Shown here one piece after another: positions 21,507 through 25,264 of a DNA stretch of 25,428 nt; position 1 is the stretch's first letter, and each line of letters begins with the position of its first letter. The DNA comes from a virus: IMG/VR virus record IMGVR_UViG_3300049893_002332, positions 1 through 25,428 of that record, one strand, 5' to 3'. The translations under genes and the position numbers were made by a program. The notes under the pieces were generated by a model that saw only the letters and a list, made by a program, of their open reading frames with translations, was not told where the DNA came from and made no database searches.

Positions 21507-21524
21507 TATTTAAGATTAGTTAAC

Positions 21525-21547
21525 ATTGTTAAGACATGTAAACAATT
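21525..21547 (-). promoter_or_regulatory. Operator-like dyad 1 (ATTGTT-N10-AACAAT)
   Basis: ATTGTT at 21525-21530 and AACAAT at 21541-21546 form a 22-bp dyad. The minus strand reads TCTTAACAAT within it. It lies 19 bases from the terminase start. On the minus strand a weak TTGTTT-N17-TAACTA promoter can be drawn over the same bases, so a bound protein could block or activate late transcription. Confidence 0.5.
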
Positions 21548-21562
21548 TTAATAATTCTTAGC

Positions 21563-21585
21563 ATTGTTAAGAAAAGTGAACAATT
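21563..21585 (-). promoter_or_regulatory. Operator-like dyad 2 (ATTGTT-N10-AACAAT)
   Basis: The same dyad with identical 10-base spacing lies 38 bases from dyad 1 and is embedded in a 38-bp imperfect direct repeat. On the minus strand a weak TTGTTC-N17-TAAGAA promoter overlaps it. The candidate plus-strand promoter at 21595-21623 begins ten bases to its right. Confidence 0.5.
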
Positions 21586-21594
21586 GGTAATTCT

Positions 21595-21623
21595 TTGGTA
21601 TGGCTAAGTGCGACATATATAAT
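21595..21623 (+). promoter_or_regulatory. Candidate sigma70-type early promoter 1
   Basis: TTGGTA, 17 bases and TATAAT match a host sigma70 promoter, with a perfect -10 hexamer and a fair -35. It faces the early genes but lies more than 400 bases before the first of them. It may produce a long leader or a small RNA. Confidence 0.5.
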
Positions 21624-21769
21624 AGAGGGGTTTCTGGTAAAATGATGCGGGGGATTCACCAAAAAAGTTCAGCGAGAAGACCCCCACCCCCTCCCCTTCG
21701 ACAAAAATTCTATAATGATCCCCGAGTCTTACGAGCAGTCAAGCACAGCACCAATGAACCGGGGGATAC

Positions 21770-21796
21770 TTGACACGTGTGTTCTACTAATATAGA
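21770..21796 (+). promoter_or_regulatory. Candidate sigma70-type early promoter 2
   Basis: A perfect TTGACA is followed after 15 bases by TATAGA. The spacer is two bases shorter than the optimum, so strength is uncertain. It faces the early genes and is followed by GGGGGA at 21808. Confidence 0.4.
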
Positions 21797-21827
21797 TGCA
21801 GAGAGTCGGGGGAACGTTCGAACTTTG

Positions 21828-21851
21828 ACTTGTTGTGTTTACACTACAAGT
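21828..21851. repeat. Inverted repeat, 24 bp, operator or hairpin
   Basis: ACTTGTTGTGT and ACACTACAAGT are inverted complements with one mismatch in 11 and a two-base centre. A dimeric regulator site is the simplest reading. It lies between candidate promoter 2 and the three 21-bp-spaced boxes. Confidence 0.5.
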
Positions 21852-21862
21852 TAGTGATTCGA

Positions 21863-21915
21863 TCTTAACAATTCAACGTTGGAACTTAACAATTGAGCAC
21901 TAAGTCTTAACAATT
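21863..21915 (+). repeat. Three CTTAACAATT boxes spaced exactly 21 bp
   Basis: Boxes start at 21863 (TCTTAACAATT), 21884 (ACTTAACAATT) and 21905 (TCTTAACAATT), all in the plus direction. A 21-bp period is two helical turns, so proteins bound there would line up on one DNA face. The same motif lies in the dyads beside the terminase gene, in the opposite direction, and again at 22124-22133. Confidence 0.7.
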
Positions 21916-22026
21916 ACATTCTTTGGCAGCTGTCTAAAAGTTATACGACAAAAAATGTCACTTCAAAAATGACACATCTAATTTAATTAAAGAAACTCCA
22001 ATGGCACATGCGATGCATCATATAGG

Positions 22027-22052
22027 GTGTACGCAAAAACAAAGGAGCTAAT
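22027..22052 (+). promoter_or_regulatory. Leader element 1: GTGTACGCAA plus Shine-Dalgarno
   Basis: The leader of the 48-residue gene has GTGTACGCAA (22027-22036), then AAAGGAGC before the ATG. The leader of the next gene has the same order. The ten bases and GGAGC are both complementary to the loop of the hairpin at 23086-23133. Confidence 0.6.
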
Positions 22053-22199
22053 ATGTATACACCTAAACAAGTAAATGAACACGCTAAAAAAGTAAATGAA
22101 GTCATGAAAGTGATCATCATCGGCTTAACAATTGGAATGTTAAGTATTGATCATGTTGTGAAAGTCGCTCAAGCGATGATCACACTTTCAAACCAATAA
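22053..22199 (+). CDS. Small 48-residue early protein, or structured RNA region
   Basis: This is the first early open frame, with a strong AAAGGAG six bases before its ATG. The product starts MYTPKQVNEHAKKVNEVMK, then a short hydrophobic stretch VIIIGLTIGML and an amphipathic end (HVVKVAQAMITLSNQ). It is too short to assign. The DNA also forms a long imperfect stem: 22105-22118 pairs with 22175-22190, 14 bp with a two-base bulge. It also contains a CTTAACAATT box at 22124. The strong ribosome site favours translation, but an RNA function cannot be excluded. Confidence 0.6.
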   Translation: MYTPKQVNEHAKKVNEVMKVIIIGLTIGMLSIDHVVKVAQAMITLSNQ

Positions 22200-22200
22200 T

Positions 22201-22224
22201 TGTACGCAACATAAAGGAGCCTAT
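22201..22224 (+). promoter_or_regulatory. Leader element 2: TGTACGCAAC plus Shine-Dalgarno
   Basis: TGTACGCAAC (22201-22210) is followed by five bases, then GGAGCC (22216-22221), which includes the Shine-Dalgarno of the 138-residue gene. It repeats leader element 1. Both segments are fully complementary to the hairpin loop at 23097-23112. Confidence 0.65.
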
Positions 22225-22641
22225 ATGAAATTAGTAAAATCAAAATCTTTTAGATTAGTATACGAATCAATGGTTGTCGGATACTCGGACTGCCACGAGA
22301 TGGATCAAAAGAAAGAACTAATATTCGGACAACGTGGTGAGCGAAATTTAAATTTTAATACAATCCTTATTGGCGCAGTTAACGCTGTAGAGATGTGTGA
22401 AATATTCTCTAAAGTTTGTCCGGGCGGTTACAACACAATGAATAAAGAGTCATTAGTCAAAATAGCTGAATGTTTTGATGATGCTGAATTCTATTTAGGT
22501 CGTGAGGGTTCTCCAGTTTTGTATATCAAACCCAAAACAAGATTATGGTTTGGAGACCGAAGACACACCGAAATAGGTACATTAGCTGACGAAGTATCTT
22601 ACGAGCCAAGCGTTGGTATGTTCAGAGTTTGGTTTGACTAA
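22225..22641 (+). CDS. Hypothetical early protein, 138 residues
   Basis: ATG at 22225 has AAAGGAG upstream, in leader element 2. The protein is a mixed alpha/beta chain (LVKSKSFRLVYESMVVGYSD, then FNTILIGAVNAVEMCEIFSK, and VLYIKPKTRLWFGDRRHTEI). Three cysteines are scattered and no metal motif is seen. There is no signal peptide or membrane span. It is probably a small phage takeover or regulatory protein. The family is not recognised. Confidence 0.8.
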   Translation: MKLVKSKSFRLVYESMVVGYSDCHEMDQKKELIFGQRGERNLNFNTILIGAVNAVEMCEIFSKVCPGGYNTMNKESLVKIAECFDDAEFYLGREGSPVLYIKPKTRLWFGDRRHTEIGTLADEVSYEPSVGMFRVWFD

Positions 22642-22655
22642 AGGTAGGAGATTAT

Positions 22656-22880
22656 ATGAATAAAAATAAATTTGTAATTATAGATTGGTGCTCAAACATT
22701 TGTTTTAAAGGCCGAGAGTTCGATTCTTTTGAAGACGCATGGGGTTTCTTGTATGAGCTCTATGACGAGCAAAAGTTCGCTGGAACTTTATCTGAAAAGG
22801 AATTCGACGACCAAATGAGCGAGTACTCAGTAGTGAATACGAAGTCTAAAAAATATCAAAATTGTAATTGGAGAATTTAA
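22656..22880 (+). CDS. Hypothetical early protein, 74 residues
   Basis: GGTAGGAG lies before the ATG. The product is acidic and aromatic: FVIIDWCSNICFKGREFDSF, then EDAWGFLYELYDEQKF and EKEFDDQMSEYSVVN. The 'F-x-S-F-E-DAW-x-FLYE' stretch is a pattern common in small phage proteins of unknown role. It is followed after one base by the next gene. It is likely cytoplasmic; no function is claimed. Confidence 0.75.
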   Translation: MNKNKFVIIDWCSNICFKGREFDSFEDAWGFLYELYDEQKFAGTLSEKEFDDQMSEYSVVNTKSKKYQNCNWRI

Positions 22881-22881
22881 T

Positions 22882-23070
22882 ATGAGTAAAAATAAAGTAT
22901 ACAAAGTAACTGATTTAGGAGTAGAACCAGTTTATCCAGAAAATTTTGAAGAGTATGAGGAACTTTTAGCGGGTGATGACCCTCACTTTAGCGATTTCGA
23001 AACTGCTATGATGTTCTGTTTAGCGGCTATTTGCTCTAGGCTCAAAGAACTTGAGAACAAAAAAGATTGA
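22882..23070 (+). CDS. Small acidic early protein, 62 residues
   Basis: This gene starts one base after the preceding stop, with GGAGA upstream in the end of that gene. The protein is strongly acidic (YPENFEEYEELLAGDDPHF) and ends with a helix, ETAMMFCLAAICSRLKELEN. Acidic small early proteins sometimes mimic DNA or bind host proteins, but nothing here is specific. The family is unrecognised. Confidence 0.7.
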   Translation: MSKNKVYKVTDLGVEPVYPENFEEYEELLAGDDPHFSDFETAMMFCLAAICSRLKELENKKD

Positions 23071-23085
23071 CCAGCTAGCGGTCAT

Positions 23086-23133
23086 ACCATGGGGCGGGCT
23101 CCGTTGCGTACACTTCGTATTTCGCCCCGTGGT
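23086..23133 (+). ncRNA. Hairpin with loop antisense to two gene leaders
   Basis: ACCATGGGGCG and CGCCCCGTGGT form an 11-bp stem with one T-G wobble around a 26-base loop. The loop begins GGCTCCGTTGCGTACAC. GTTGCGTACA is the exact complement of TGTACGCAAC in leader 2, and GGCTCC complements its GGAGCC ribosome site. TTGCGTACAC complements leader 1. It lies in the 83-base gap before the cold-shock-like gene. It could be a trans-acting RNA, a long-range switch in the same mRNA, or a structured leader of the next gene. No clear terminator follows. Confidence 0.55.
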
Positions 23134-23153
23134 TCAATTTTGAAAGGATCTTT

Positions 23154-23378
23154 ATGATGAAATTAAAGGGATTAGTTAAGTGGTTCGACGAATTTAAAGG
23201 AATTGGAGAAGTATACAGCCAAGAAACAAAAAGTATATATTTTGTAATTTTTCCAAAAACAAGACAAATAAACCCGGGTTTTAACACTTTAAAGGAAAAA
23301 CAACGAATAATATTTAATATAAATAAACATGGTTTAGTAACTGAATACTTTAAATTAAGTTCTGAGGTGTCTTTATGA
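23154..23378 (+). CDS. Divergent cold-shock-domain protein
   Basis: This protein has 74 residues, near the usual size of CspA-like proteins. KGLVKWFDEFKGIGEV near the N-terminus matches the cold-shock signature (x-VKWFN-x2-KGFGF). NPGFNTLKEKQRIIFNI matches the later loop-strand (x-DGYKSLDEGQ-x-VxFxI). The RNP2-type VFVHF is replaced by IYFVIFP, so the conserved His is missing and RNP1 is altered. The fold should bind single-stranded nucleic acid, but affinity may differ. AAAGGA lies upstream; ATG 23157 is an alternative start. The long hairpin in its leader recalls structured csp mRNAs. Confidence 0.75.
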   Translation: MMKLKGLVKWFDEFKGIGEVYSQETKSIYFVIFPKTRQINPGFNTLKEKQRIIFNINKHGLVTEYFKLSSEVSL

Positions 23379-24683: not shown

Positions 24684-24880
24684 GGGGCGAGAAGCAAAAA
24701 CTTTTGACGCGTTTTACCTTACTGAAACATTGGATATTCACTACTGAAACATGGATGTTTCAGGGTTAAATATTGGATAACAAAGTAAATAATACCTGTA
24801 ATCTCGTTTTTTTGACTGAAACATGCCTTTCTGGGATGCGACCATTAGAGCGAAAAATCGATTGGCTATGCGTCAATTGG

Positions 24881-24950
24881 AAAAAATAAAAATATTTCTC
24901 TTAATGCTTTGATATTTTTATAAATATATTAATATATACATAGTGTTATT
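24881..24950. other. AT-rich tract, possible DNA unwinding element
   Basis: By my count 8 of 70 bases are G or C. The tract contains AAAAATAT/ATATTTTT inverted repeats and ATATTAATAT. It lies between two groups of the TGAAACAT sites, as an unwinding element does in iteron origins. Confidence 0.5.
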
Positions 24951-24953
24951 TGA

Positions 24954-25060
24954 GTTAACTTATTGAAATCATTGACCTTTAGTGCTGAAACATTACTGAA
25001 ACACTTAGGTATTAAGCACTATGTTAACATCTTGAAATCATTCAGTTCTAGTGAAACATT
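24954..25060. repeat. Imperfect direct repeat, about 40 bp, period 69
   Basis: Copy 1 (24954-24994) and copy 2 (25023-25060) share GTTAAC, TTGAAATCATT, TAGTG and AAACATT in order. Copy 2 lacks three bases near its end. Each copy ends in a TGAAACAT site, so the array seems to have grown by duplication of a larger unit. Confidence 0.65.
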
Positions 25061-25122
25061 TGCCATGTTTCAGTCATGTTTCACCATGTTTCAGTCACGG
25101 TACTTTTTGCCCAATTCTCTCC

Positions 25123-25146
25123 AATCTTATACCCAAATATAAGATT
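25123..25146. repeat. AT-rich perfect hairpin, 9-bp stem
   Basis: AATCTTATA, six bases (CCCAAA) and TATAAGATT form a perfect stem between the last two groups of iteron sites. Few T residues follow on either strand, so it is not a clear terminator. It may belong to the origin. Confidence 0.55.
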
Positions 25147-25264
25147 TTCCAACGCACCCCGACGAACTGAAACATTAGCACTTTTCTCAGGTATTTTCTA
25201 ACGCGAATTACCTCACCTTTTCTATCAAGAACCCCCGCTTCCTCAATTCCCATCTTCATTACTT

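Follow-up and report, generated by a model that had tools for sequence, protein, structure and literature searches.

A hairpin in the early operon of an unclassified phage presents a loop that is complementary, in two parts each, to the leaders and ribosome sites of two genes upstream on the same strand. For this one genome, the best explanation, and one that we consider fairly probable, is that the loop, as + strand RNA, exerts antisense control over the translation of these genes, which encode proteins of 138 and 48 residues. The window (the whole stretch of DNA analysed, a virus record of 25,428 bases) has genes for packaging and virion structure on the − strand, those for terminase, portal and tail among them; on the + strand, small genes are grouped from position 22053 onward. 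The features discussed below are:

22027–22048, + strand: target 1, leader and Shine–Dalgarno sequence of the 48-residue gene, GTGTACGCAA-AAACAAA-GGAGC
22053–22199, + strand: 48-residue gene, no credible family match
22201–22221, + strand: target 2, leader and Shine–Dalgarno sequence of the 138-residue gene, TGTACGCAAC-ATAAA-GGAGCC
22225–22641, + strand: 138-residue gene, no significant family
23071–23153, + strand: intercistronic gap of 83 nt between the genes for a 62-residue protein and a cold-shock protein, mostly filled by the hairpin
23086–23133, + strand: hairpin, with arms at 23086–23096 (ACCATGGGGCG) and 23123–23133 (CGCCCCGTGGT)
23097–23122, + strand: 26-nt loop, GGCTCCGTTGCGTACACTTCGTATTT
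23097–23113, + strand: antisense segment of the loop, GGCTCC (anti-Shine–Dalgarno) followed by GTTGCGTACAC (anti-leader)
23154–23378, + strand: gene for a 74-residue cold-shock-domain protein, CspE/CspA-like, that follows the hairpin directly

The hairpin and its two mirrored leaders

Within the loop, GTTGCGTACA is the exact complement of TGTACGCAAC (22201–22210) in the leader of the 138-residue gene, and GGCTCC is the exact complement of GGAGCC (22216–22221), the Shine–Dalgarno sequence of that gene. The leader of the 48-residue gene matches through GTGTACGCAA (22027–22036) and GGAGC (22044–22048). Exact complementarity extends over 10 + 6 bases for the former leader and 10 + 5 for the latter, in the same order and with the Shine–Dalgarno sequence included in both. 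The paired parts are separated by ATAAA (5 bases) in the 138-residue gene leader and by AAACAAA (7 bases) in the 48-residue gene leader; this spacer is absent from the loop, and there is no similarity between loop and leaders outside the paired segments. The core sequence TGTACGCAA has three copies in the whole window, two in the leaders and one, inverted, in the loop, all inside 1.1 kb of the early region. An initial annotation of this DNA had described the hairpin and its complements to the two leaders, and its coordinates, stem, loop and exact matches all proved correct when re-checked.

The stem comprises 11 pairs, one of them U·G, and RNAfold added two G·U pairs, giving a 13-bp stem with a 22-nt loop. 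These U·G and G·U pairs hold in + strand RNA only and are mismatches in − strand RNA; the folding energy was −24.1 kcal/mol for the + strand RNA compared with −19.4 for the − strand RNA. Only two stems on the + strand of the window have 9 bp or more together with 6 or more GC pairs, and that of the hairpin is the longer; among the wide-loop stems of that strand, it is also the strongest. Gaps elsewhere in the operon, up to the hairpin, do not exceed 25 nt. Hairpin and targets lie on the same strand, with no + strand terminator-like site between them, and a search for signals of a short RNA identified no + strand terminator or processing site. No Rfam family matched the hairpin, and no tRNA was found. 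A frame of 22 codons (23089–23157, MGRAPLRTLRISPRGSILKGSL) opens within the stem, and its stop overlaps the start codon of the cold-shock gene; no Shine–Dalgarno sequence was seen for it, and it is probably due to chance, or may encode a leader peptide.

The protein encoded downstream matches PHROG 729 (1.1e-5) and the CspE structure PDB 3i2z (4.6e-7), and it matches the CspE model at 3.5e-9, under the curated cut-off of that model. Its RNP1-like nucleic-acid-binding motif is altered, reading GIGEV rather than GFGFI. Judged by these matches, it is a divergent CspE/CspA-like protein, and a role as RNA chaperone for the hairpin would be attractive. Structure prediction for the 138-residue protein gave a pLDDT of 41, with no confident fold.

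Selectivity and strength of the predicted pairing

Among the 36 leaders in the window, the loop gave its best duplex energies with the leaders of the 48-residue gene (−26.8) and the 138-residue gene (−26.6), followed by −19.4 for the next best. The antisense segment (23097–23113) accounted for −26.6 with the 138-residue gene leader and −22.2 with the 48-residue gene leader. When the opening of loop and target was included, the same two leaders ranked first and second of 36, at −17.0 kcal/mol for the 138-residue gene and −7.8 for the 48-residue gene, and the remaining 34 reached −4.5 or weaker. The 48-residue gene leader, which costs 14 kcal/mol to open, folds on itself, with GGTGTA pairing to TACACC at the start codon, and is therefore the weaker target. 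Ordinary cofolding, a method that cannot model loop kissing, kept the hairpin and the 48-residue gene leader apart, and 16 pairs in a closed 26-nt loop are geometrically tight.

The comparison with shuffled loops suggested by the initial annotation came out in favour of the real loop: its duplex energy was matched by 1 of 5,000 dinucleotide-shuffled loops for the 48-residue gene leader and by none of 5,000 for the 138-residue gene leader. When all 26-mers of the window were taken from both strands, energies below −23 with the 138-residue gene leader were reached solely by the loop and by the two leaders' own complements. Of 200,000 random 26-mers from the early region, 333 matched one of 10 leaders on the + strand in a bipartite (9 + 5) manner and none matched two, although two-leader matches are not independent because both leaders have the motif in common. 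As a natural null, we tested hairpin loops against the leaders of their own contigs in 66 contigs with a GC content of 0.30–0.46; a GC-matched set was used, whereas a null over all contigs is dominated by GC-rich ones. The loop was the best of 312 and the sole one that paired with two leaders at −22 or better.

A possible third target, AATACGAAGT (22836–22845), complements the 3′ half of the loop exactly and is located some 36 nt before the 62-residue gene begins. It was set aside as weakly above chance, with a 10-base run in 28 of 1,000 shuffles and a comparable energy in 10 of 60.

Known antisense systems and the search for relatives

The closest known system is the C4 antisense RNA of phages P1 and P7 (RF01695), in which two segments, both presented in loops, pair with the target: one overlaps part of its ribosome site, and the other provides specificity by pairing with bases upstream (PMC5320573, PMC12197685). 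The hairpin resembles C4 in its bipartite complementarity to a ribosome site and the sequence upstream of it. C4 folds into three stem-loops, keeps its two segments in different loops and is released from a precursor by RNase P (PMC5320573), whereas the hairpin has one long stem with both segments side by side in a single loop and lies downstream of its targets. The C4 covariance model gave no match at the gathering score in the window, nor any up to E = 10 in 22950–23200. By analogy, the hairpin would be C4-like in its working and is not a member of the C4 family.

OppZ and CarZ of Vibrio cholerae are operon-derived RNAs, cut by RNase E from a 3′ UTR, that pair with the mRNA of their own operon and inhibit its translation (PMC7398697). 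The loop is likewise complementary to the translation start region of genes on its own strand; unlike OppZ and CarZ, the hairpin is phage-borne and internal, between two genes, with the cold-shock gene and further + strand reading frames following it, and its pairing region is the loop. A similar arrangement is known from RNA-OUT of Tn10 and from other antisense RNAs of the loop-to-leader kind, where the loop of a hairpin pairs with a linear leader across its ribosome site. RNA-OUT is encoded opposite its own target. Here the loop is encoded on the same strand as its targets and about 0.9–1.1 kb from them, which also distinguishes the hairpin from cis-antisense RNAs of the OOP and sar type. 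A literature search for antisense control within the same mRNA in phages yielded nothing useful.

The phage terminase shares about 23–25% identity with those of LUZ24-like Pseudomonas phages. A terminase profile search brought up only LUZ24-like relatives at 20–25% identity, with one 30-residue stretch at 53%; these are too far removed to have early regulation in common. Because the terminase is so divergent and no closer relative was found, we treat the phage as unclassified and the record as probably a fragment. Scans of viral contigs with single proteins (the 138-residue, cold-shock, terminase, portal and 331-residue proteins) found no close relative, a terminase scan of genome contigs found none either, and the early region had no relative in viral contigs, genome contigs or phage and plasmid records.

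The bipartite site as a DNA pattern had 43 matches in viral contigs, and the pattern GGCTCCGTTGCGTACA had 40 in genome contigs against about 120 expected from base counting; both sets resemble chance. A leader-type pattern had 71 matches, which are genuine ribosome sites but belong to unrelated phages. In the nine contigs with this pattern that we examined, the best mirror of the leader in the rest of the contig reached −17 to −23. One apparent leader in contig L008 had no loop partner. Separately, a conserved leader, CCTGTACGCAACTAAAAGGAGTAACTATG, precedes small genes in a number of low-GC viral contigs (L074, L079, L088, L096, L098 and others); these contigs are unrelated to the window, and the two that were checked contain no loop partner.

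Elsewhere in the window, ten copies of ACTGAAACAT (six exact) lie in both orientations at 24720–25176, a number reached in 0 of 100 shuffles. They resemble an origin of the iteron type or a set of partition-type sites, with parS-like half sites.

Competing explanations and the proposed control

An inverted match of this kind fits three readings, namely an antisense RNA, a DNA site and an inverted copy of a leader, and a complement of the Shine–Dalgarno sequence is expected for the first and the last only. A plain inverted leader copy is disfavoured because the spacer of 5 or 7 bases is missing and similarity ends with the paired segments. The DNA site was raised by the initial annotation as a protein site present in both orientations, and it could take the form of an operator, TGTACGCAAC, for a phage or host regulator, placed twice in one orientation and once inverted, with the hairpin and the complementarity as by-products. 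The confinement of three exact TGTACGCAA copies to 1.1 kb would suit such a site, as would a sigma-54-like sequence at 22002–22017 (TGGCAC-N5-ATGCA, 0.40 expected by chance), which would have transcription start at about 22027, where the 48-residue gene target and with it the first copy begin. We nonetheless regard an operator as improbable, and the protein-site alternative as less likely than antisense control, because the Shine–Dalgarno complement beside the inverted copy and the absence of the 5–7-base spacer are left unexplained, as is the fact that this copy falls precisely within the loop of the strongest stem. Moreover, the second copy is inside the operon, immediately behind a stop codon, and therefore fits translational rather than promoter control. 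The region also has another repeat that already looks operator-like from its arrangement: CTTAACAATT, with four exact copies and two inverted near-copies inside 610 bp (21524–22133), three of them (21864, 21885 and 21906) at exactly 21-bp spacing.

The functional RNA could instead come from the − strand, where the inverted hairpin is directly followed by a terminator-like hairpin and T run (TGACCGCTAGCTGGTCA-ATCTTTTTTG, 23084–23059), which would yield a small RNA of about 90 nt. Such an RNA has the same sense as the leaders and would therefore be a decoy that draws off ribosomes or a regulator of the leaders, or it could be antisense to the + strand hairpin. We judge this quite unlikely: terminator-like sites in the region are at chance level (three found, 2.9 expected), the T run corresponds to two Lys codons of the 62-residue gene read from the opposite strand, no promoter-like site of at least 9/12 lies upstream on the − strand, and the stem is weaker on that strand. 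A similarly small chance attaches to the hairpin being a 5′-UTR element of the cold-shock gene, serving autoregulation, temperature response or mRNA stability, with the leader complementarity secondary or fortuitous. Its position directly upstream of a CspE/CspA-like gene would agree with this, and CspE proteins bind and melt RNA hairpins; against it, the complementarity to two leaders is far above chance, the ribosome site of the cold-shock gene near 23145 is not covered by the hairpin, and the nucleic-acid-binding motif of the protein is altered.

The antisense reading, which the initial annotation had proposed for both genes, thus emerges with its targets unequally weighted: the loop beats shuffled loops, selects exactly two of 36 leaders with their Shine–Dalgarno sequences and sits on a stem that forms better on the + strand, but the 48-residue gene leader is the weaker partner. 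On this reading, the hairpin in the + strand early transcript would be an antisense RNA element whose stem displays a single-stranded stretch of 17 bases. The first 6 bases of the loop would pair with the Shine–Dalgarno sequence and the following 10 or 11 with the recognition sequence just upstream, strongly at the 138-residue gene leader and less so at the 48-residue gene leader. Pairing would begin at the exposed loop bases, after which the top of the stem would perhaps open because so many pairs are tight in a closed loop. With the duplex in place, 30S subunits would be kept from binding, and translation of both proteins would fall. The hairpin would be transcribed after both targets, and the effect would therefore set in once the transcript has passed the hairpin, as delayed negative feedback in the early operon. 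It may act in cis, in trans from within another mRNA copy of the operon, or as a small RNA released by processing.

More tentatively, the hairpin could represent an RNA class for which no family has been described. It would be a compact antisense module with a single loop, set between genes of a phage early operon as a timer that shuts off the first two of them, possibly with the adjacent CspE-like protein as its RNA chaperone. To our knowledge, few early operons of phages encode an antisense regulator of their own, and the chief precedent for a match to the ribosome site plus the sequence upstream is C4. If true, a one-loop antisense element inside the operon that it regulates would show how little sequence delayed early-gene feedback needs, and would suggest a general search for operon-internal hairpins whose loops mirror upstream leaders.
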